From the IMG/VR virus record IMGVR_UViG_3300025026_000001, positions 1 to 21,942 of that record: a DNA stretch of 21,942 nt. One strand, written 5' to 3'. The DNA comes from a virus. Below the pieces are notes generated by a model that saw nothing but the letters and a program-made list of their open reading frames with translations, made no database searches and had not been told where the DNA came from. Position 1 is the stretch's first letter, and every line of letters begins with the position of its first letter. The translations under genes were made by a program, and so were the position numbers. Shown piece after piece: positions 2,250-21,942 of the stretch.

Positions 2250-2849
2250 ATGAGTATAGGTAATAGACTAAATTTAGTAATAGAGTACTACAATATGACT
2301 CATAATTCATTTGCAAAATCACTTGGAATGCATAATGGTAGTAATATTAAAAGATTAATCACATTAAATAGATCTCCCCAAATATCAACAGTAAAAAAAA
2401 TATCTCAAGCTTATCCAAATTTAAATATGGATTGGTTAAGAACTGGAGCTGGGAAAATGATAATAGGAGATAAAACTGATATTAGAGAAGATGACTTAAC
2501 CGTAACAGCTAAACAAATATTAAAGAAACTTGATGAGGATAGAGTTTACTATGACTCTGTAAGAAAAGAAATGAATACAATTAAATTTAAAGAGCTGTTT
2601 GATAATTTTGAAAGTCTTGAGGGTAAGGTTGAATCCTATGCTGTACAGGCTTCGCAAACAGTAAACGATAAATTAAATGAGTTATCTAAAAATTATAATG
2701 ATAGCTTTCTTGTTGCACTAGATAAAATATTAAGAATTGAGCAAGACTTAGAAAACATTAATACGTTTATGGCTCAAGCTTTTGAAACAGAAAAGATAAA
2801 GTCAAAATTAAAACCAAAATTAAAAACAAAGCCGAATGAAAGAACTTGA
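2250..2849 (+). CDS. Phage repressor, HTH with coiled-coil C-terminus
   Basis: 199 residues on the plus strand, opposite to nearly everything else. Residues 1-70 form an XRE-type helix-turn-helix: NRLNLVIEYYNMTHNSFAKS, LGMHNGSNIKRLITLNRSPQ, ISTVKKISQAYPNLNMDWLR, then TGAGKMI. The WL.TG.G ending is typical of Bacteroidota phage repressors. The remaining part (about 78-199) is charged and helical, rich in heptad-like leucines and ending in a lysine tail. It contains no S24 peptidase motif, so RecA-driven self-cleavage is not expected. The likely job is to hold the leftward early promoter shut in the lysogen through the inverted repeat. It overlaps the next plus-strand gene by 14 nt. The repressor role comes from position and fold. 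Confidence 0.75.
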   Translation: MSIGNRLNLVIEYYNMTHNSFAKSLGMHNGSNIKRLITLNRSPQISTVKKISQAYPNLNMDWLRTGAGKMIIGDKTDIREDDLTVTAKQILKKLDEDRVYYDSVRKEMNTIKFKELFDNFESLEGKVESYAVQASQTVNDKLNELSKNYNDSFLVALDKILRIEQDLENINTFMAQAFETEKIKSKLKPKLKTKPNERT

Positions 2850-3048
2850 TAAGCAGACTAAAGCTATTAAGACTATAATAAATAATGACAATTATACAGA
2901 TAACGAAAAATTGACATTATACAATGATTACAGTTCTTACTTTAAAAAAGTGTATATAAGAATGTTCCAAATAAAAGAACATAGTGAAGAAGTCAAGGAA
3001 AGAGCCAAACGAATACAAAGAATAAGAAAGTCTAAAACAAATTCTTAG
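2836..3048 (+). CDS. Hypothetical protein downstream of repressor, 70 aa
   Basis: 70 residues, starting 14 nt inside the end of the repressor gene and so probably translated from the same mRNA. It is highly charged and helical (MKELDKQTKAIKTIINNDNY, EEVKERAKRIQRIRKSK) with a strongly basic C-terminus. There is no recognised domain. Its 3' end overlaps the 3' end of the convergent integrase gene by 17 nt. A partner or modulator of the repressor is possible because the two genes are coupled and the repressor lacks a cleavage domain; this is speculation. Confidence 0.55.
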   Translation: MKELDKQTKAIKTIINNDNYTDNEKLTLYNDYSSYFKKVYIRMFQIKEHSEEVKERAKRIQRIRKSKTNS

Positions 3049-4213
3049 TATGTTCTATTATTGCTTTGTTGTTTACCTTCTTGTACTTTTTTAAAGTGTT
3101 GCTATCTTTTATTCCAGTAATTTCCATTATAAAATGATCTGGCACATTTCCCTCACTAGCTAGAGTTATGTAAGTTCTTCTAGCAGTATGTGATCCTATT
3201 TTTTCCCACTTCTCTTTGATTTCCTCTTTTTTGTGATTTCCTTTTGAATGAGTAAATTTTATCTTATCATTAATCTCTAAGGCTTTGCAAATCTGTTGTA
3301 TATGTACATTAAATTTTTGAGAGCTTATCTTAGGCAAGTTCCAATCGTATTTATCCAGGATAGCTTTTAGCTTGGTGTGTAATGGTATCTTAGATATAGA
3401 GCTGGTTTTTTTAGCTCTTTTATATAAGAGTCCGTTTCTAACATCTGCTTTATCAAATACAGAGTAATCACTCCAACGCTGACCAGAATAAACACCAATT
3501 AAAAACAAATCTCTAGCTCTATCTTTTGCTCCAGACAATTCAGCACTTGCAATTAGTTCTACCTCTTCTCTAGTTAAAGCAACATCATCGGTTTCATGCT
3601 TCTTAATTCTTACCTCTGCAAAGTCCATAGGAGGGGAGTACCCTTTTTTTATACACCAACGCAAGAAAGTTTTAATTACAGATATATATCTATTAAGAGT
3701 GTTATCATATAAATCGTGCTTATCTCTTAGATATATTATAAGATCAATAAAAAATTGCTCTTGTAAATCGGATAGCTTGTATTGTCTTTTCTTATGTATT
3801 TGAAATACAACTAGTTTGTTCAATACTACTTTATATTTCTGAATAGTCTTATAGGCAACATCACTAACTTTAATTCTTTCATTTAAAAAGGCTTCAAAGT
3901 AATCTAAGGCATAAACAAATTCTTCTGATTTATTAAATGCTAGTTTTAAATCTCCTATAGTAAGATCTTTGCCAAACTTATAGCGTAAATCTTCTATTTT
4001 TTTGTTAAACTCATTTAGCTTAACGCTTATCTTTTGGGATTCAATTCCAAGACCTCCACGCTTTCTTATTGGAATTCTATTTTTTTTATCCCAATTATCA
4101 GGATTTATTTTTATATTTGTCGAAATTCTGAATTTAGCCTTATCTCTAGCTACATAGTATTGTACTATTATTAAGGTTTTGTTTTTGGAATTAGGCTCTT
4201 TTAAATAAAACAT
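3032..4213 (-). CDS. Tyrosine recombinase, phage integrase
   Basis: 393 residues from the preferred start at ATG 4213-4211. The N-terminus (MFYLKEPNSKNKTLIIVQYY, then KFRISTNIKINPDNWDKKN) is an arm-type DNA-binding domain of the Bacteroidota integrase kind. Residues about 100-195 form the SAM-like core-binding domain. The catalytic domain shows R246 (SGQRWSDY), K269 (RAKKTS), H342-x-x-R345 (SHTARRTY) and nucleophile Y377 (LKKYKK). The usual GH box is GI here, a known variation. The frame stays open upstream to 4384, but those 57 extra codons read the antisense of the tRNA fragment and the arm repeats (MLVARRGLELD), so I reject that start. The enzyme integrates and, with the excisionase, excises the phage at the adjacent attP. 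Confidence 0.93.
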   Translation of the reverse strand: MFYLKEPNSKNKTLIIVQYYVARDKAKFRISTNIKINPDNWDKKNRIPIRKRGGLGIESQKISVKLNEFNKKIEDLRYKFGKDLTIGDLKLAFNKSEEFVYALDYFEAFLNERIKVSDVAYKTIQKYKVVLNKLVVFQIHKKRQYKLSDLQEQFFIDLIIYLRDKHDLYDNTLNRYISVIKTFLRWCIKKGYSPPMDFAEVRIKKHETDDVALTREEVELIASAELSGAKDRARDLFLIGVYSGQRWSDYSVFDKADVRNGLLYKRAKKTSSISKIPLHTKLKAILDKYDWNLPKISSQKFNVHIQQICKALEINDKIKFTHSKGNHKKEEIKEKWEKIGSHTARRTYITLASEGNVPDHFIMEITGIKDSNTLKKYKKVNNKAIIEHTKNLF

Positions 4214-4222
4214 AATTTTAGT

Positions 4223-4245
4223 AGTGGTAAGTATCGTGGTAAGTT
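4223..4245. repeat. Integrase arm-type repeat, integrase-proximal copy
   Basis: Two copies of GTGGTAAGT lie in tandem within 23 nt, starting 9 nt upstream of the integrase start codon. The block recurs at 4424-4446 in the same orientation with one mismatch. Repeats of this kind on both sides of the att core are expected to be arm sites for the N-terminal domain of the integrase. The position also allows binding to affect integrase expression. Confidence 0.65.
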
Positions 4246-4354
4246 TTATTGCTTTCAAATGTACAAAAAACATACATTTTAACACATAACTAAAGAAATA
4301 ATTAAAAGATTCCCTTCGATACTTATGGTTAAGTCGAAGATAACGAATAAAATC

Positions 4355-4380
4355 GAGTTCGAGTCCCCTACGGGCTACTA
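4355..4380 (+). other. attP core: 3'-end fragment of a tRNA gene
   Basis: GTTCGAGTC at 4357-4365 is a T-loop signature (G53-TTC-R-A-NN-C61). It is followed by CCCCT as the 3' T-stem, ACGGGCT as the 3' acceptor strand and A as discriminator, up to about 4380. The 5' T-stem does not pair (TCGAG against CCCCT), so only the 3' end of a tRNA is present. This is how phages that integrate into tRNA genes restore the gene. The fragment lies between two arm repeats and next to the integrase. The predicted host tRNA has a 5' acceptor strand close to AGCCCGT. I cannot name the isotype. Confidence 0.75.
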
Positions 4381-4388
4381 ACAATTTT

Positions 4389-9759: not shown

Positions 9760-11787
9760 TTATATTGGGTATGCTCCTCTGTTTGGCATATTTTCTGGTG
9801 CAATTCCAGCTTGTTTAGAACCACTAGGGTTTTTCATATAACTCTTAGGAATAGTTTTAGTTTTCTTATAGTTTCCTAAATTCTCGGATGGCTCTGTATT
9901 GCTTTCTAATCTGAAAAGCACTTTTTTGAAAATATGTCTACAGTAAATTCCTCCCTTAAATTTAAACAAATCGAAAGGTTGACCATTATGTCCTAATTGT
10001 CTGTTTACTCCCTCTCTTGATGCTCTATCAATATCTTCAATAGTCCAAACTATTCCAGCATTAGCCATATTCATCATATTTCTGCAAAACGCTCTTTGTG
10101 TTAAACTTGGCTTTCTTGAACCTACAGCGTAAGTATATCTAATTTTATACAATCCGTTTTTAGAATCTAAATAACTAAATGAGCTACCTTTTTTCTTAGA
10201 AGTAATTTCATCTTTTAATCCAAGTAATCCTTTAACCTTAGATAGAGTGCTTTTTTTCTCTTTAATTAAATAGTTTGCCCAATCCTCATTAGCTACATCA
10301 GAATCAGCATCTAATTCATCAACAAAAACATAGTCATCTGACATTTTAACACCACTATCAGCTAAAGAACCCAGCACATTTTTTGTTTCTTCCTCATTCA
10401 TTTTAATAGGAATGCAATTAGGAACTTGTTTACCATTTTTGGTTTTCATTCCATATTGCTCATATCCAGCTTGACAAGGCTTTTTTAAATCTACTGCTTC
10501 ATCATGTGAATCGCATGGCATATACCATACCTCTCCATCTTCTTCGTGTTTATGGTAGCCTTCACATCCTTGTTCTAATGCTTTTGCTTCTGCTTCTTCT
10601 ATAGTTTTATAAACCTCTTGACCATCAATCATTTTAAGATTAACCTTAGCCATTTCATAGCCAGTTTCTTCTTCTATTACTTCTTTAGTTTCTAGTACAT
10701 CTATATCGCTAAATTCAATCGGTTTAAGAGTCTTAAAGTATAAGTCTAATGCTATATCATTAACTGATAAAATTGCATCAATACACTCGACTACTTGATC
10801 TTGAAAGTTTTGTATTACAATAGAATCAAATAATTGTGTAGCAGTTTTAATTTCTTCTGCATTGTTTCCTAGTCCATCGTTTCCTTCACGAATACCTAGA
10901 AGCATTGGAGAGGTAACCCTATGACCTACGATAAGCTTTTTAAAGCATTCATCAGCTAAATAGGAATAATGAGCTGGAGCATCGTTTAAAGGAATGTCAT
11001 CTACTGTTGTTTTGGATTCTGGATTATTGTTAAATGCAACAATTACCTTCTCTCCTCTGCTTCCTGTTAGTTTAGATAAAACATCATTTTTAATAGATTG
11101 CATTTTTTCAGGATCAGGAATTCCATTAGAAAAATTTACGACCTTCGTTCCTGAGAAACCACTTATACAATCGTTAATTAAATAATCTCCTATTTCATCC
11201 TCTAAGACAGCATAAGGCATTGCTGAACTCCAATCTGGAGAACTATAATAGTATTTACCAGCTTCGTAAGGCTTTAGTACATACATTTCTGCTTCATTAC
11301 CTTTGCCATATCCAAATGCTGCGATTCTGTCTGGCTTTTCGTTTGGTTTCATATTATCCCAATGATTGGAATAATACCAAGCTTCTATTTCTCCCTCTTC
11401 ATTGCATTTTTCAGCTCTAAGCGTTTCCATTGGGAAATGGTGTACTTGTTTTACTTTTCCATCTTTATAAACTAGTTGAAATGCTGCCATTCCAAGTATT
11501 TTGTAGTCAGAGATAAATCTTCTTAAATCTTGCTTTTTAAACAACGACATCATTTGAGCGTACTGCTCTGGTCTTTTATCTCCATCGTGTGCAGCAAGTC
11601 CTTTTCCATAGATCATGTTAGAAACCCCTATACAAATGGCTCTATTAGTAGTAGAGTTGTTGTTTACATCAATTATATAGTTAAAATAATTGTTATCCTC
11701 TCCATATTGGATATAATCCTTGTTTTTTAACTCTACAACTTCTGGAGCTGTATAGGCTGCTAAATTAGTTATGAAAAAATTGCTCAT
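9760..11787 (-). CDS. Portal protein with long cysteine-rich C-terminal extension
   Basis: 675 residues, against 400-500 for most portals. Residues 1-365 are the portal core: YIQYGEDNNYFNYIID, IYGKGL, DLRRFISDYKILGMAAFQLV, then VGHRVTSPMLLGIREGNDGL and the long NNAEEIKTATQLFDSIVIQN helix. The portal is the dodecameric ring through which DNA enters the capsid. Residues about 376-462 hold a CEGYHKHEEDGEVWYMPCDSH module (C408, H412, H414, C425, H428) and a GYEQYGMKTKNGKQVPNC module (C438, C458). Residues 537-625 form a third domain beginning FSYLDSKNGLYKIRY and ending YCRHIFKKVLFRLES. The two last modules occur as separate or protease-linked parts in other flavobacterial phages. It overlaps the upstream gene by ATGA. 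Confidence 0.85.
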   Translation of the reverse strand: MSNFFITNLAAYTAPEVVELKNKDYIQYGEDNNYFNYIIDVNNNSTTNRAICIGVSNMIYGKGLAAHDGDKRPEQYAQMMSLFKKQDLRRFISDYKILGMAAFQLVYKDGKVKQVHHFPMETLRAEKCNEEGEIEAWYYSNHWDNMKPNEKPDRIAAFGYGKGNEAEMYVLKPYEAGKYYYSSPDWSSAMPYAVLEDEIGDYLINDCISGFSGTKVVNFSNGIPDPEKMQSIKNDVLSKLTGSRGEKVIVAFNNNPESKTTVDDIPLNDAPAHYSYLADECFKKLIVGHRVTSPMLLGIREGNDGLGNNAEEIKTATQLFDSIVIQNFQDQVVECIDAILSVNDIALDLYFKTLKPIEFSDIDVLETKEVIEEETGYEMAKVNLKMIDGQEVYKTIEEAEAKALEQGCEGYHKHEEDGEVWYMPCDSHDEAVDLKKPCQAGYEQYGMKTKNGKQVPNCIPIKMNEEETKNVLGSLADSGVKMSDDYVFVDELDADSDVANEDWANYLIKEKKSTLSKVKGLLGLKDEITSKKKGSSFSYLDSKNGLYKIRYTYAVGSRKPSLTQRAFCRNMMNMANAGIVWTIEDIDRASREGVNRQLGHNGQPFDLFKFKGGIYCRHIFKKVLFRLESNTEPSENLGNYKKTKTIPKSYMKNPSGSKQAGIAPENMPNRGAYPI

Positions 11788-12119
11788 ATTACTACATATT
11801 CGTTAGTGGTTACATTCTCTGTATAGACATCTTTGTTAATCGTATAAGTACTAACTGTTTGATCTGTACAAAAAAGCATATCTCTATAAACTATTGAAGA
11901 GCCATTTAACACTTTTAAAGTGTAAAATCTACCCTCTACTAGTACTGGAGAGAATGTTACGTTACCTTTTAGATAATATTTATCCTTTGTAAAAGTTAAT
12001 CCAGCATAAGTAACTGGTTTGTTAGTATCTTGATCAGTAATAACTATACTAGATGCTGCATATTCACGAGGAATAAACTTCAATTCTTGAGCATTTGTAG
12101 TAGTAGTTAGTATAATCAT
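11784..12119 (-). CDS. Small beta-rich virion-associated protein, 111 aa
   Basis: 111 residues with alternating strands: LKFIPREYAASSIVITDQDT, YAGLTFTKDKYYLKGNVTF, LVEGRFYTLKVLNGSSIVYR and MLFCTDQTVSTYTINKDVY. This is an immunoglobulin-like or similar sandwich. I associate the FIPRE start and the FYTL-V-NGS-VVYRD-LFCTDQ motif with a recurring small protein near capsid and portal genes of Bacteroidota phages. It lies between the tail tube terminator and the portal. A capsid decoration or tail ornament is a reasonable guess, as for Ig-like domains on other phages; the role is not proven. The ATG at 12119 begins MIILTTTTN. Confidence 0.55.
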   Translation of the reverse strand: MIILTTTTNAQELKFIPREYAASSIVITDQDTNKPVTYAGLTFTKDKYYLKGNVTFSPVLVEGRFYTLKVLNGSSIVYRDMLFCTDQTVSTYTINKDVYTENVTTNEYVVI

Positions 12120-12168
12120 TCAATTCCTTTTTTAATAAACACCAAAAGGCTAAAACTGTTATATAAAA

Positions 12169-12195
12169 AAAGGCAAAACTTAAAGTAATGCCTTT
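12169..12195 (-). terminator. Rho-independent terminator after the tail tube gene
   Basis: Reading the minus strand, AAAGGCA at 12195-12189 pairs perfectly with TGCCTTT at 12175-12169 across a 13-nt loop, and a run of seven T follows (GCC then TTTTTTT). It lies in the 98-nt gap between the tail tube gene and the next small gene, so part of the late transcript probably ends here. That would keep expression of capsid and tube genes above that of the portal and downstream genes. Confidence 0.65.
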
Positions 12196-12217
12196 ATTTT
12201 ATTTATAAAATCAAAGA

Positions 12218-12763
12218 TTAAGTTCCAACTACAATTACTGTATTTGTAGTATCTCCAATAATAGAGGGAAGTATAAAATTAGCTGGAGATTTCTCTGTTC
12301 CAGTTAATGTTAAGTTATATCCATTTAAATCTCCCATTCCAGCACCAGTTGCAGTATTAACTGCTACCTCAACTCCATTTTCTATACCAGCTAAATAAAA
12401 GTTTCCGTTATAATCTTCCACTATTATTTGTGGTCTGCCATAAGAAAGTAACTTTAATTGAGCTGTAGTAGCTTTATCTTGTTTCTTTAAAACAACAGTT
12501 CCTGATTGAGTCCAGAAACTAGTTCCGTTCTCTCTTGAATTTTCATTAGTCTGGTCAAAAGAATTAGCTCCTTTTAAATCATACTTATAAAAAGTAAGTG
12601 CTGATGCAAATCCTGTTATTTCATCTGCTGTTATTGTAACTCCTCCATCTGCTGGAGCGTTTAGTAAACCACTTGTATAAGCACCTCCTATGTAGATAGC
12701 TGTTATGCCACCTACGGAGTCTTTACATGGTTCTAAACGACCAGCTGTAATATCACATGCCAT
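12218..12763 (-). CDS. Major tail tube protein
   Basis: 181 residues. MACDITAGRLEPCKDSVGGI at the start, then FYKYDLKGANSFDQTNENSR with ENGTSFWTQSGTVVLKKQDK, YGRPQIIVEDYNGNFYLAGI and GMGDLNGYNLTLTGTEKSPA are the conserved blocks of a structural protein family widespread in Bacteroidota phages, including crAss-like phages. The beta-rich layout fits a tail tube subunit that stacks in hexameric rings. It follows the capsid gene with a structured 78-nt gap and is itself followed by a terminator, consistent with high expression. That a tail tube protein sits in the head module, far from the other tail genes, is notable. Confidence in the family is high, in the tube role moderate. Confidence 0.78.
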   Translation of the reverse strand: MACDITAGRLEPCKDSVGGITAIYIGGAYTSGLLNAPADGGVTITADEITGFASALTFYKYDLKGANSFDQTNENSRENGTSFWTQSGTVVLKKQDKATTAQLKLLSYGRPQIIVEDYNGNFYLAGIENGVEVAVNTATGAGMGDLNGYNLTLTGTEKSPANFILPSIIGDTTNTVIVVGT

Positions 12764-12780
12764 AAGTTTATATGTATTAT

Positions 12781-12821
12781 AACTCTATGGGTATTAAGTA
12801 GTACCTAATACCCTTTGAGTT
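12781..12821 (-). other. Long hairpin between capsid and tail tube genes
   Basis: GGGTATTA (12789-12796) pairs with TAATACCC (12806-12813) around a 9-nt loop, and after symmetric 3-nt internal loops AACTC (12781-12785) pairs with GAGTT (12817-12821). There is no T run on either side, so it is not a standard terminator. It lies 18 nt upstream of the tail tube start codon and 20 nt after the capsid stop. An RNA processing or mRNA-stabilising structure that separates two abundant products is the likely meaning. Confidence 0.5.
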
Positions 12822-12841
12822 GATTAGTATTAATTTATTAA

Positions 12842-13834
12842 TTATCCAGCATAGTAAACTACGTTTGCACCTACTCCGATTTGTACAGCAGCAGTAAATC
12901 TCATTACGATTCTTACATTTTGCGATCCATCGATTGGAGTTTGGTCTATTACTCTAACTTCGTTGTAGTCAGATAATAATCCAGTTCCAAAGAATAAGTT
13001 AGAAGTTTCAGCAGCAATCATTGTGTTGTCGCTCATACCTCTTGCTACAAAGATTGGAATACCACCAAATGATAAGCTTCCTCCTCCGTACCATTGAGTA
13101 CCTCTGTTTTCAAAACCAGCAGCACCTTTAGAAGATACGTTTTCAGTTCCAGCAGCATTTAATTGCGCACCAAATCCACCTAAAGCTCTAATGTATAATT
13201 TAGCAGCTTTGTTAGAAACGTATAATTTTAAATCTTCTTTTCCAAATAATGTATTTGGAATAGCATCTACTGTATCTTGCATTTTATCTATGATATTTGC
13301 AGCAGTTAATGCAGCAGCTCCAGCTACATCGATAACAGTTGCATCAGCAGCAGCTAAAGTTTCTAGTCCATTGTACTCTCCAGCTTGTGCTCCTCCTAAG
13401 TTTCCAGTCCATAAGTTAATTTCGTTTTGTGCTGCTACTTTAGAAGCTACATAACCAATTAAATATTCTGAGAATGAACTTGGTAGTCCGTTATTATTAA
13501 AGCTACTGAACCCCATCTGAATCGCATCCCATGTGTTAAGGAAGTCTGATTTACATAAGTTTAAGTTCACTTGGAACTCTTCTGGTTGCAATACTACTTC
13601 TGAAAGTGTTACAGAAGATGAAGCTGCAAAATCACAAGTTCCATCTGCGATTAAATCTCCAGTTTCTACTTTTTGTATTACTTGTTTAAATTTTACATTT
13701 GGCATTACAGTAATACCACCATCATCAATAGTTGAAGCAGTTAATAGAGCAGCAGAAATATATTTTCCACTAAATTCCCCAGCATATGAGCTAGAAATTG
13801 TTACTGTAGTCGCTAAGTCTGTTCTTTTTGACAT
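12842..13834 (-). CDS. Major capsid protein, HK97-like
   Basis: 330 residues, the usual size. It shows the pattern of Bacteroidota phage capsid proteins: SGKYISAALLTASTIDDGGI and VMPNVKFKQVIQKVETGDLI near the N-terminus, FQVNLNLCKSDFLNTWDAIQ before the spine, then SSFSEYLIGYVASKVAAQNE and a C-terminal FGGIPIFVARGMSDNTMIAA with NLFFGTGLLSDYNEVRVIDQ and VRIVMRFTAAVQIGVG. The alanine-rich, balanced composition and codon regularity fit a highly expressed gene. It follows the scaffold-like gene by 20 nt and comes after the protease gene, so assembly and maturation genes are together. Fold assignment is by pattern and context. Confidence 0.85.
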   Translation of the reverse strand: MSKRTDLATTVTISSSYAGEFSGKYISAALLTASTIDDGGITVMPNVKFKQVIQKVETGDLIADGTCDFAASSSVTLSEVVLQPEEFQVNLNLCKSDFLNTWDAIQMGFSSFNNNGLPSSFSEYLIGYVASKVAAQNEINLWTGNLGGAQAGEYNGLETLAAADATVIDVAGAAALTAANIIDKMQDTVDAIPNTLFGKEDLKLYVSNKAAKLYIRALGGFGAQLNAAGTENVSSKGAAGFENRGTQWYGGGSLSFGGIPIFVARGMSDNTMIAAETSNLFFGTGLLSDYNEVRVIDQTPIDGSQNVRIVMRFTAAVQIGVGANVVYYAG

Positions 13835-13854
13835 AATTTTAATTTTTTTAAATA

Positions 13855-14412
13855 TTAGTTGTTGTTAAATAATCTTGCAAATACTCTATCTTGAGTATTC
13901 ATCGGTCTGTTTTGAGCATAGTTTACAGGCTCTACTTCGTTTTTACTTTCTGGATTGTGCTTGATAGCAGATAATTCTACATGATCGTTTACTTCAATTT
14001 GTGAAGCTTCTACCTTGCTTTCCTTGTCAGCTTTTAAATCAGCTATTGCATCTTCAAGATTTTTCACTCTTATTTCAAGACCTCTCCAATCTTCAATGTC
14101 TGCTACTTCAGCTGCTTCTACCTCTTCTACTACAGGAGCTTCTACTACTTCTTCAACTTCCTCCTCTACGGATTCTTTCATTTCAGCAATTATTCCATCC
14201 TCTTCAACGATTAGCATCATGCCATCATCTAAAAGATACTCTCCAGCTGGAACAGCTATTCTTTCATCTTCATCGGTTACAATAAAGACCTCTCTACCAG
14301 CTTCAAAAGCATCTGCTTCAAATCGAGTGCCATTTTCTAGCTTTCTCTCTTCTAACTGAACTTCTAAACCAAGTAAAGCTCTCACTTTGTTTAATTTGTC
14401 TGTTGACTTCAT
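13855..14412 (-). CDS. Scaffold-like capsid assembly protein
   Basis: 185 residues. It begins KSTDKLNKVRALLGLEVQLE, followed by a beta domain LENGTRFEADAFEAGREVFI and AVPAGEYLLDDGMMLIVEED. A very acidic stretch (about 80-105, VEEEVEEVVEAP and similar) leads to a coiled coil (RGLEIRVKNLEDAIADLKAD) and a conserved tail NRPMNTQDRVFARLFNNN. The coiled coil, acidity and place directly before the capsid gene are typical of a scaffold that shapes the procapsid and is removed or cleaved later. The beta module recurs in flavobacterial phages as part of this protein. The protease upstream may process it. Confidence 0.7.
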   Translation of the reverse strand: MKSTDKLNKVRALLGLEVQLEERKLENGTRFEADAFEAGREVFIVTDEDERIAVPAGEYLLDDGMMLIVEEDGIIAEMKESVEEEVEEVVEAPVVEEVEAAEVADIEDWRGLEIRVKNLEDAIADLKADKESKVEASQIEVNDHVELSAIKHNPESKNEVEPVNYAQNRPMNTQDRVFARLFNNN

Positions 14413-15318: not shown

Positions 15319-16887
15319 TTAATCTCCTAGCGTAGCACCTTGTATAATTCCATTCTCTAAACTTTGTGCAGTAGTAACATCTTGAGAAACTACAAAGGCT
15401 TGAATAGGAGTCTGTTGTTGCTGTCCTAATGCAGATGCAATTTGGCTTCCTTCTCCTTGTCCTACTATATTAAATGCTGGTACTTGAACAGGAGTAGAAG
15501 TTGGAGCAGAAACTGGAGCAGAGCCACCACCACCACCTTTAACAGTTTTTAAAATATTACTAGCTTGTTTTGCTGCTCCAGCTACAGCTGCAATTTGTTG
15601 TGCATAAAATATTGGAAATGCAAATGCAGCTGCTGGTCCTGTTCCTTTAGCAGATTTTTGTGCTATATCTAAACCTTGTACATAACCAACTCCAGTTCCT
15701 ATAATAATTTCTGCTAATGCAGCTGCTTTACTTGCAGCTGTTCCTTCTTGAAATAAAGAACCAAGTGCGCCAATAGCTGAACCAGATGCTTCAACTAATT
15801 GTAATTGTAAAATTTTTCTTGCTTCTGTTATGGTAATATCATCATCTAAACTCTTTTGTTTTATTTCTTCTTCTTCTTTTGCATATTTAACATTAATATC
15901 TTTTTTCTTTTGTGCTAAAGATTCTTCTAATTCTAAAACGATAGGAGATAATACTCCATAGTAATCGATTGCTTTTTGTATTAAATCATCATAAAAAATA
16001 TCTAGCTGATTTAACTCTTCAGCTCTTTTTTCTTCTTCAGTATTTATCATTCCCAATCTAATCTCTTCTAAAAATTGAGATCGTTTTTTTACAACTTCAA
16101 TAGCTTCTTTATCTAATGCAAGAAGTTTTTTGGAAATTTCAAAATTTTTGTCTTTTATCTCTTTTATTTTGCCTTCTATTTCAGCAGTTTCTTCTGAATC
16201 TTCTTTGATTGATTCTTGAAGTGATTTTATTCCTTTTTGTTTATTAAATCTAAACAGAACAAATGATTTGGTTGCTTCCCACCAAGTGAGTTCTTTGTTT
16301 TGTGCTTTTTCTTGATCTAACTGATTTTCATAACTTTTTAAACTTTCAATGTTTATTTCTTGCTGTAGTAAAAGCTGTTTTCTTAATTCATTAGTTATTT
16401 CACGAGTTGGTTTGCCTTGTAATTCTAAAAGCTCTTTTTGTTGTGTAAGTAAACTAACCTCAATATCTAACTGTTTATTTATTCTCTCATACTCAGCTCT
16501 TTGTTTTTCTAAATCTCTTGTAGCTCCAGTAATAAAATCAGTTATTTCATCCCAATAAGAAACTACAGTTCCAAGTAAAACAACAAAAGCTCCAATTCCT
16601 GTAGCTATTAATGCTGTTCGCATTGACTTTAAACTAAAATTAAATAGTTTAGTAGCTTCAAAAGTATCACGAACTCTGGATGCAAGACCACCAGTAAGCT
16701 GATCTAGTATAGCAATAGCACCACCATTTTTTGTTACCTCTTCAAATTGCGATGCAGTTTGCCCAGTTTCTTTGTTTAATTTTTTTTCTGCTTTTGTAAG
16801 GTTATCTACTGCTACTGTAGTTGCTGTTAAATCAGCTGTTGCTGCTGCTGTATTAGCCTGTACATTAATTACTACTGTATTAGCCAT
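15319..16887 (-). CDS. Tape measure protein
   Basis: 522 residues. A helical N-terminus (TVVINVQANTAAATADLTAT, VDNLTKAEKKLNKETG) is typical of tape measures. A hydrophobic segment (LIATGIGAFVVLLGTVVSYW, about 93-112) follows. A long charged coiled coil covers about 120-355. Then comes an alanine- and glycine-rich region (TAASKAAALAEIIIGTGVGY and AAAFAFPIFYAQQIAAVAGA) and a flexible glycine-, proline- and glutamine-rich end. It fixes tail length and passes DNA through the membrane. At about 0.15 nm per residue it predicts a tail near 75-80 nm, which is short for a siphovirus. It overlaps the upstream 48-aa frame by 16 nt and precedes the protease gene. Confidence 0.85.
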   Translation of the reverse strand: MANTVVINVQANTAAATADLTATTVAVDNLTKAEKKLNKETGQTASQFEEVTKNGGAIAILDQLTGGLASRVRDTFEATKLFNFSLKSMRTALIATGIGAFVVLLGTVVSYWDEITDFITGATRDLEKQRAEYERINKQLDIEVSLLTQQKELLELQGKPTREITNELRKQLLLQQEINIESLKSYENQLDQEKAQNKELTWWEATKSFVLFRFNKQKGIKSLQESIKEDSEETAEIEGKIKEIKDKNFEISKKLLALDKEAIEVVKKRSQFLEEIRLGMINTEEEKRAEELNQLDIFYDDLIQKAIDYYGVLSPIVLELEESLAQKKKDINVKYAKEEEEIKQKSLDDDITITEARKILQLQLVEASGSAIGALGSLFQEGTAASKAAALAEIIIGTGVGYVQGLDIAQKSAKGTGPAAAFAFPIFYAQQIAAVAGAAKQASNILKTVKGGGGGSAPVSAPTSTPVQVPAFNIVGQGEGSQIASALGQQQQTPIQAFVVSQDVTTAQSLENGIIQGATLGD

Positions 16888-20164: not shown

Positions 20165-20769
20165 TGTTTATTATTTTGTTTTTCTAATGCTATACGAAGT
20201 CTTATTAATTCATCTATATCTCTACCAAATGCAGCTTGAAGTAGTGGAGTATATATTTCCACTCCTTTTAAAAAAGGTTTAGTAAAAAACATAGTAGGAG
20301 CTATTCCTCTATTAAATATATTTTTAGATATTATGTATGCTATGCTATCATAATTGCCTTTTTCAAACTTTCCAGTAGGAACTCTTTTACCATCTACTGT
20401 TTTATATCTTCTTAATCTTATATTCTTTTGCTTTGCCCATGCTCTAATTTTTCCTTGAAACTCATCCCAAGTTCCACTAGATGAACCACTACCAAATCTG
20501 TAAGGAGATCGTGGAGCTTGTTGCCCTTTTAGTTTAGCATTAGGAGATACTTTACTAGGATTATTTCCTCGAACTCCTTTATCTACAAAAGTTGCATAAT
20601 CAACTCCATAAAAACTAATTTCATAAAGATTGTCAGATTCTGTTAATTCATAGTTTAGACTATTGAATAATTCTCCCCCTCCTTTTTTATCTTTAGTTAA
20701 TTCAGCTCTTGCACCTTGTATAACAAAACTTCCAAATTTCCTAAACTCAGCTGATAGTTCTCTTAGCAT
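20161..20769 (-). CDS. HK97 gp10-like tail completion protein
   Basis: 202 residues. The N-terminal half shows GSFVIQGARAELTKDKKGGG, LFNSLNYELTESDNLYEISF, then YGVDYATFVDKGVRGNNP, the YG-x-x-YA-x-F-V-x-x-G pattern of the HK97 gp10 family, whose members join head and tail. The second half is longer than usual (KIRAWAKQKNIRLRRYKTVD, YIISKNIFNRGIAPTMFFTK, PFLKGVEIYTPLLQAAFGRD), with a conserved R-G-I-APTMFF-KP segment. It overlaps the preceding gene by 7 nt. The likely role is neck or tail completion. The family match is by motif. Confidence 0.7.
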   Translation of the reverse strand: MLRELSAEFRKFGSFVIQGARAELTKDKKGGGELFNSLNYELTESDNLYEISFYGVDYATFVDKGVRGNNPSKVSPNAKLKGQQAPRSPYRFGSGSSSGTWDEFQGKIRAWAKQKNIRLRRYKTVDGKRVPTGKFEKGNYDSIAYIISKNIFNRGIAPTMFFTKPFLKGVEIYTPLLQAAFGRDIDELIRLRIALEKQNNKQ

Positions 20770-21227
20770 ATAGTCATATCATTAGGTACTAATACATTAA
20801 AAGTTGCTGTAACACCAGCTAACTTATTTTCAAAACGATCAACAAAAAACTCTAACTGTGGATTGCCTTCTAGCTGATATTTCTCTACATATAAATCTCC
20901 TCTTAGTAATAACTCTAGCAATCTATTAGCTACAGCCATTTGCGTGTTAAGTACATCTTGCTCATTGCTAGTACCTCTAAAATCAGCTGGTGTGCCTTCT
21001 GGAAACTCTTTGCTCTCATCTACTATATCCATGCATAATACCGATACTGAAAAGTTCCAGACATTGCTCTGCATAGTTGCTCCTGAAATCATTACATGAG
21101 ATAATGGAAATATAGTTTGCTTGTTTAAATCTACTTCGAAAATATCTCCATACGTTACTGTATTTACAAAAGCATCTAGTTGTAGAGTTTCTCTTATTTT
21201 GTTAGATAGGTTATAAAATCCTTGCAT
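20763..21227 (-). CDS. Tail terminator / tail completion-like protein
   Basis: 154 residues. GFYNLSNKIRETLQLDAFVN leads to VTYGDIFEVDLNKQTIFPLS and HVMISGATMQSNVWNFSVSV, then CMDIVDESKEFP and NEQDVLNTQMAVANRLLELL, and finally GVTATFNVLVPNDMTIC. The alternation of a helical entry with beta strands and the NEQDVLNT-x-x-A-V-x-N helix match a conserved small protein of flavobacterial phage tail modules with the size and layout of tail terminators. These cap the tail tube so it can join the head. It starts one base after the chaperone stop codon. The family is recognised; the terminator role is inferred from size and place. Confidence 0.6.
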   Translation of the reverse strand: MQGFYNLSNKIRETLQLDAFVNTVTYGDIFEVDLNKQTIFPLSHVMISGATMQSNVWNFSVSVLCMDIVDESKEFPEGTPADFRGTSNEQDVLNTQMAVANRLLELLLRGDLYVEKYQLEGNPQLEFFVDRFENKLAGVTATFNVLVPNDMTIC

Positions 21228-21228
21228 A

Positions 21229-21483
21229 TTATTTAAATTTGTTTTTAATCATTGTATTCTCTAGCTGTATTTTTTCCTTTTCAAAAGCCAAATACATTAG
21301 GCATTGATGAAGGGATAACTTTGTAACCTGTTCAAATTTTGTAATGTCTCCTTGAGCAAGTGCATAGAGTTCTGAATAGCTTCCCCACTTTCTGCTAAAT
21401 CCACTCCTTGCATCTGTGCCTGTTTGATCTCCTTCTCCAAATAATTCGGTATAGAGTTCAGCAATGCGCTTGTTAAATTCCAA
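21229..21483 (-). CDS. Tail assembly chaperone, -1 frame extension (GT-type)
   Basis: 84 codons open in the -1 frame relative to the upstream chaperone gene, with no ATG before about residue 63. The only early start would be TTG at 21483, inside a run of nine T. The sequence EFNKRIAELYTELFGEGDQT, RKWGSYSELYALAQGDIT, then FEQVTKLSLHQCLMYLAFEK is protein-like and resembles the T part of tail chaperones. It is best read as the C-terminal part of a frameshift fusion that begins in the upstream gene and slips at 21482-21490. In lambda-like phages the G and GT proteins hold the tape measure until the tail tube polymerises. Translation as an independent protein from TTG is possible but less likely. 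Confidence 0.65.
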   Translation of the reverse strand: MEFNKRIAELYTELFGEGDQTGTDARSGFSRKWGSYSELYALAQGDITKFEQVTKLSLHQCLMYLAFEKEKIQLENTMIKNKFK

Positions 21484-21942
21484 AAAAAAACCATCGCTCC
21501 AAGTACTACATCTAGTGGCATATTTTTCATCATCTCACTATACTTGTGGCTACCTTCATAATCTTCTATTAAGTATTTAGAGTTTAGCTTTTGCTTTACT
21601 GGTCTAAATAATACTGCCATAGCTTTATGCATATTTCCCCAATCGTTTATGTAGTTTGTAACATCTTTATTTTCTCCATAGGTAATATCATCTAGCTTTG
21701 GAATAAATCCGTATAACACACCCTTCATTTTAAATGTGGGAATAAACTCATGTTTTTTATCAAAGAGCTTATTTATAATTGCTAGTAGATTATCTACATC
21801 CTTATCTTTTATCTTGCCTAATTCTTTAGTATTGATATTTAAGATGCATTTAAGCATGTCATCATTATCTGGATTTTCTTTAATTAGTAACTCTTGATAG
21901 TTTTTAAGTTTAACCTCTCTAAGAGAACTTGGAACAGATACT
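21297..21942 (-). CDS. Tail assembly chaperone, zero frame (G-type), partial
   Basis: The frame is open to the right edge; 28 codons precede the first Met (21857), and the upstream residues SVPSSLREVKLKNYQELL look like the native N-terminal motif, so the real start is outside the window. Conserved blocks follow: MKGVLYGFIPKLDDITYGE, YINDWGNMHKAMAVLFRPVK, MKNMPLDVVLGAMVFF, then WNLTSALLNSIPNYLEKEI. The first 150 or so residues are the chaperone body. After the slippery site the zero frame continues for about 62 codons, overlapping the -1 frame by 187 nt. Both frames look coding. This would be the G protein, with GT made at lower level by slipping. Confidence 0.7.
   Translation of the reverse strand, partial: VSVPSSLREVKLKNYQELLIKENPDNDDMLKCILNINTKELGKIKDKDVDNLLAIINKLFDKKHEFIPTFKMKGVLYGFIPKLDDITYGENKDVTNYINDWGNMHKAMAVLFRPVKQKLNSKYLIEDYEGSHKYSEMMKNMPLDVVLGAMVFFWNLTSALLNSIPNYLEKEIKQAQMQGVDLAESGEAIQNSMHLLKETLQNLNRLQSYPFINA
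21482..21490 (-). promoter_or_regulatory. Programmed -1 frameshift site (T9)
   Basis: Nine T in a row (minus strand) read ATG GTT TTT TTT TGG in the zero frame. The last seven zero-frame bases of the run give T TTT TTT, a perfect X-XXY-YYZ heptamer. Slipping back by one base gives TTT TTG GAA TTT AAC, which enters the chaperone extension. No obvious long downstream hairpin was identified by eye. Confidence 0.65.

Follow-up and report, generated by a model that had tools for sequence, protein, structure and literature searches.

The window analysed here is the whole 21,942-nucleotide stretch of a 21.9-kb virus record from a marine phage, and the recoding locus lies wholly on its minus strand. 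The central feature is a run of nine T (21482..21490, minus strand), read in the zero frame as GTT TTT TTT TGG between ATG and AAT TTA, which contains the exact in-frame heptamer T TTT TTT (21483-21489, minus strand). The zero-frame ORF (21297..21941, minus strand), a candidate gpG-like product, consists of an N-terminal domain and a tail of 61 further open codons after the run, and its 5' end is cut by the window edge. The gene starts just beyond this edge: a relative with 98% identity (L002) opens with MQVEVSVPSSL and the window with VSVPSSL, and the relatives give a full-length zero-frame protein of 218 aa. In the -1 frame, an ORF of 84 codons (21229..21483, minus strand; LEFNKRIAELY...KWGSY...) represents the C-terminal domain of the putative recoded fusion. 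The two frames share 187 nt (21297..21483, minus strand), a stretch in which both are constrained. The preliminary description had its coordinates right, and it was also right about the exact heptamer, the 84 open -1 codons with no ATG near their start, the length of the overlap and the zero frame that stays open past the run, for which we counted 61 codons. No other T9 occurs in the window, whichever strand is read, although dinucleotide shuffles led us to expect 4.56; if anything, the rest of the window seems to avoid long T runs. The T run is not a product of chance, because it is conserved in 283 loci.

These relatives were obtained in several rounds. A search of IMG/VR with the -1 domain gave 80 contigs at 65-99% identity, a second search brought the set to 110 loci, and profile searches reached more distant clades, for a total of 283 loci, which fall into 61 clusters when grouped at 80% identity. 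T9 and the frame relation seen in the window recur in all 80 IMG/VR contigs; their zero-frame tail is always exactly 61 codons long, and their -1 frame has 84-85 codons where the contig end does not cut it. Among the 283 loci the run is T9 in 259 and T10 in 24, none being shorter or longer, and the frame relation at the run is identical down to about 30% identity; a large, mostly uncultured family of Bacteroidota phages retains the T9-T10 run. The -1 domain is conserved as well, with Y11, F29, W33 and Y36 invariant. The zero-frame tail has 47-72 codons across the further clades of the recoded-gene family and 16-25 codons in the Inhavirus lineage. Two cultured phages alone were found in this set, Nonlabens phages P12024L and P12024S (about 30% identity). 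Both carry T9 in the corresponding position; their zero frame continues for 25 codons after it, and their -1 frame is closed five codons before it. A sequencing artefact of the T run was considered and rejected, as hundreds of contigs and the isolate genomes agree. One locus, L306 (position 1618), has a zero-frame tail of 6 codons and is the only short-tail locus outside Inhavirus.

The only possible start of the -1 ORF in the window is a TTG at the slip codon itself. That this ORF is a gene in its own right, with internal or non-standard initiation, would fit this first-codon TTG and the annotation of P12024L gp41 as a 55-aa ORF of its own, but it is hardly credible, for the TTG occurs in only 25 of 110 loci, no other ATG, GTG or TTG is found in the first 30 -1 codons, and in many loci the -1 frame closes a few codons upstream of the run. 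An independent start was therefore rejected; a separate start codon, which the preliminary description had named as a possible refutation, was not found. The earlier prediction of two products from one start outside the window is supported, and so is that of a conserved slippery run.

The open zero frame after the run is not accidental either. Synonymous reshuffling of the -1 protein of the window leaves the zero frame open with a probability of 0.014 (median across clusters, 0.016), and a chance-open frame was rejected because random synonymous coding closes it about 97-98% of the time. Constraint was tested in disjoint sister pairs, 33 at first and then 42 from other clades. In the 33 pairs, no zero-frame stop was produced by changes silent in the -1 frame (8.2 expected) or by changes that were not silent there (12.6 expected), and both classes were enriched for changes that are silent or conservative in the zero frame. 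The mirror test in these pairs gave a still stronger constraint on the -1 frame, and the same tests were essentially null in neighbouring single-coding stretches. In the 42 further pairs, the two classes held 2 zero-frame stops each, where 10.6 and 6.7 were expected. The rates of change per opportunity were 62.6 for changes silent in both frames, 26.1 for those silent in the -1 frame only, 14.1 for those silent in the zero frame only and 9.8 for those silent in neither; on this basis the -1 frame is more constrained than the zero frame. Stops are avoided and conservative changes favoured in both frames, in two independent clades, while the controls are null, and the overlap 21297-21483 is therefore dual-coding, of which we are close to certain. 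The codon-wise comparison of relatives proposed in the preliminary description thus revealed purifying selection in both frames. It could be argued that the zero-frame tail is passive and owes its open frame to constraint from the -1 protein alone, since the -1 frame is the more constrained of the two and the Inhavirus tail is as short as 16-25 codons. This is very improbable, given how rarely a -1 protein alone would leave the zero frame open and the selection seen on the zero frame itself.

In lambda only a few zero-frame codons follow the slip. At the present locus the distance from slip to stop is about 183 nt. In the phage training set of PRFect (SEA-PHAGES, annotated tail chaperones), the average distance from slip to in-frame stop is 26 nt (PMC10885494). 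Hence, the view that the overlap is unusually long holds against the published average, but not within the recoded-gene family, where 47-72 codons are the rule. An AlphaFold2 (AF2) model of the zero-frame protein reached a pLDDT of 84 and predicted helices at residues 147-182 and 190-211; the N-terminal domain was confident, and the two long helices around and after the run were less so (pLDDT 54-87). From this model, the zero-frame tail plausibly forms a helical hairpin.

By analogy with lambda, the recoded pair is probably a gpG/gpGT-like tail assembly chaperone, a reading that is based on the gene order, the tape measure gene downstream and the recoding itself. The tape measure protein, which we presume to be the client of such a chaperone (15319..16887, minus strand; phrog_24676, tail length tape measure, E 2.9e-13), is encoded on the same strand, five genes downstream of the pair. 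The next downstream gene (20763..21227, minus strand; 154 aa) is tail-terminator-like by position only and belongs to phrog_30964, of unknown function; the same neighbour recurs in L081, L216 and L353. In relatives the order is TerL, the recoded pair, a gene of 150 aa, a gene of 165-200 aa and the distal tail genes, or, by type, TerL, the recoded gene, a terminator-like gene, an HK97-gp10-like gene, the distal tail genes and the tape measure gene; the recoded gene follows TerL and does not directly precede the tape measure gene. In such a chaperone, the common N-terminal part would hold the tape measure protein, which the abundant short form would coat, and the rarer -1 domain would recruit the tail-tube protein. 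The earlier proposal of a tail-chaperone pair is borne out by the recoded architecture and the tail-module context, but not by database matches: PHROG and Pfam searches returned only unknown families and no named chaperone family, and sequence and fold searches of the PDB gave no match.

This lack of a family match, the position next to TerL and a weak match to the terminase small subunit family phrog_2414 (E 0.0035) would also suit a recoded pair that is real but serves in another role, for example as a packaging or head-tail protein. We consider this unlikely, as the support for a terminase small subunit is one weak local match, the same operon continues with tail genes and the tape measure gene, and the hallmark of tail chaperones is just such a conserved recoded pair ahead of a tape measure gene.

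A T9 run is a classic site of RNA polymerase slippage. Under ordinary decoding, the gene would yield a protein of about 218 aa with its last 61 residues after the T9 run, and in a fraction of products a shift to the -1 frame at the run would bring in the 84-aa KWG[WS]Y domain instead. The sequence leaves very little doubt that -1 recoding occurs at the T run; the slip itself we infer from the conserved run and frame relation. It is suggested that the switch would proceed mainly by RNA polymerase slippage at T9, with one U added, and that ribosomal -1 frameshifting on U UUU UUU would be a contributor or an alternative. As the main agent RNA polymerase is narrowly favoured, at a little better than an even chance. 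Every locus (283/283) has an uninterrupted run of 9 or 10 T, and programmed transcriptional slippage calls for about nine or more A/T. Nine A or T are enough for efficient slippage of bacterial RNA polymerase in vivo, and the RNA-DNA hybrid of this enzyme spans 9-10 bp (PMC5009743), a length that the conserved T9-T10 run matches. In gut Bacteroidales (including Prevotella and Dysgonomonas sp. 520), T9 is kept in another codon phase, GCT/AGT/AAT TTT TTT TTR; the phase differs yet the run is still T9, and therefore it is the run length, not the encoded residues, that is preserved. Since T9 or more persists even in this moved phase, and since neither downstream RNA structure nor a conserved Shine-Dalgarno was seen, ribosomal -1 frameshifting seems no more likely than RNA polymerase slippage. 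No downstream hairpin or pseudoknot was signalled by MFE z-scores (mean z -0.1 to -0.8), and a conserved Shine-Dalgarno stimulator was not seen, a Shine-Dalgarno-like site being present in just 36 of 61 clusters; such stimulators are usual, not obligatory, for a ribosomal -1 frameshift.

The same two products and the same overlap could also come from classical ribosomal -1 frameshifting, by tandem slippage of two tRNA-Phe on U UUU UUU, and we give this reading somewhat less than an even chance. It is favoured by the heptamer T TTT TTT of the X XXY YYZ type, which is exact and in frame in every locus of all clusters, and by the T6G, T7G and T7C runs of P2-like phages (PMC3931495). The characterised tail chaperones, likewise, all rely on the ribosome for recoding (Xu 2004, cited in PMC5009743). 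On the other hand, seven T suffice for this mechanism, yet 9-10 are always found and in two codon phases; the two Phe codons within the run read TTT in each of the 61 clusters, so that the last heptamer base never makes TTC, against TTC in 118 of 439 upstream Phe codons (27%); and there is no stimulatory RNA structure. Two further points count against RNA polymerase. Conserved V/L/I and Y/W/C residues can account for the T at positions 1 and 9 of the run, and every tail-chaperone recoding known to us is ribosomal.

The preliminary description had asked whether an indel in the run joins the two parts in one frame in any relative, and only two isolated T10 cases were found, both with the alternative frame open. 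In L353/L408 both parts are read in one frame and the alternative frame is still open. In L438, the prophage copy of Dysgonomonas sp. 520 (NZ_QVMP01000015), there is a single fused ORF of 253 codons and the alternative frame is open for about 80 codons after the run; a related phage-like locus of the same strain (L437, NZ_QVMP01000013) has T9 and two frames. These cases could be errors or recent slips. With RNA polymerase slippage, the fused T10 loci would still give both products, which a ribosomal -1 shift would not. Seven predicted proteins of 234-267 aa in BFVD (A0A516L611, A0A516L5A8, A0A6J5SVK3, A0A6J7WJY4, A0A6J7XA66, A0A6J5N0W0 and A0A6J5MY57) resemble the -1 domain as well as the zero-frame model in fold, which hints at natural single-frame fusions in distant relatives.

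Frameshifted tail chaperones are a textbook example of conserved ribosomal recoding. As in lambda gpG/gpGT, a single start would serve for two proteins through -1 recoding, close to the tape measure gene: a short form and a rarer form with a small C-terminal domain. The locus differs in having no detectable sequence homology, a T9-T10 slip run and 183 nt that are dual-coded. The E/E+E' pair of phage P2 is alike in its T-run slip, its -1 frame and a second ORF without a ribosome-binding site, and E' reaches 37 nt back into E (PMC3931495); P2-like phages have runs of 6-7 T with a variable last base and this 37-nt overlap, whereas here there are 9-10 T and about 187 nt. In Shigella mxiE (T9), Thermus dnaX and Citrobacter tssM1, A/T runs of at least 9 give two length variants per gene (PMC5009743, PMC4256274, PMC3711429), with slippage of 20-30% in mxiE (PMC4256274). 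Their products are assembly or regulatory proteins; these are bacterial genes, and at the present locus such slippage is a proposal from the sequence. We know of no phage tail gene that uses transcriptional slippage, and our literature search found no paper on recoding in this gene family or on slippage in tail-chaperone genes. Permanent fusion of G and T in TP901-1 gives non-infectious particles (PMC4493119), and for this reason a fixed product ratio would be selected.

Overall, the best explanation, a dual-coded gpG/gpGT-like pair switched mainly by RNA polymerase slippage, stands in our judgement at about an even chance. The wider proposal, that Bacteroidota phages make a tail-chaperone pair by polymerase slippage at T9-T10 with an overprinted tail of 47-72 codons and selection on both C-termini, falls just short of that. 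The same recoding logic would be kept, but with a homopolymer at the threshold of RNA polymerase slippage and a long dual-coded overlap. The locus is tractable for testing whether phages can fix the ratio of two proteins at transcription instead of translation, and how two C-termini evolve within one stretch of DNA.

Automated annotation splits or truncates such genes, as in the Inhavirus phages. P12024L gp40/gp41 and P12024S gp38/gp39 share the N-terminal domain, the -1 domain, the place of T9 and the order after TerL with the present pair; apart from the lower identity and shorter tail given above, they differ in being annotated as two separate hypothetical proteins. In gp41 (NC_018272.1 24473-24640) and gp39 (NC_018271.1 23663-23830), the -1 domain is annotated as a 55-aa protein from an internal start, which misses the N-terminal 26 or so codons of this domain and the fusion.

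The window also has a portal, a putative tail-tube protein (12218-12763) and a major-capsid-like protein at 9760-14412 (minus strand), after the tape measure gene and the tail genes. Such a tail-before-head order is unusual; in the relatives, TerL precedes the recoded pair. Further along, a 450-aa ORF from TTG (3032-4384, minus strand), tyrosine-recombinase-like as judged by its sequence, adjoins a regulator-like ORF (2250-2849, plus strand), and the phage may be temperate.
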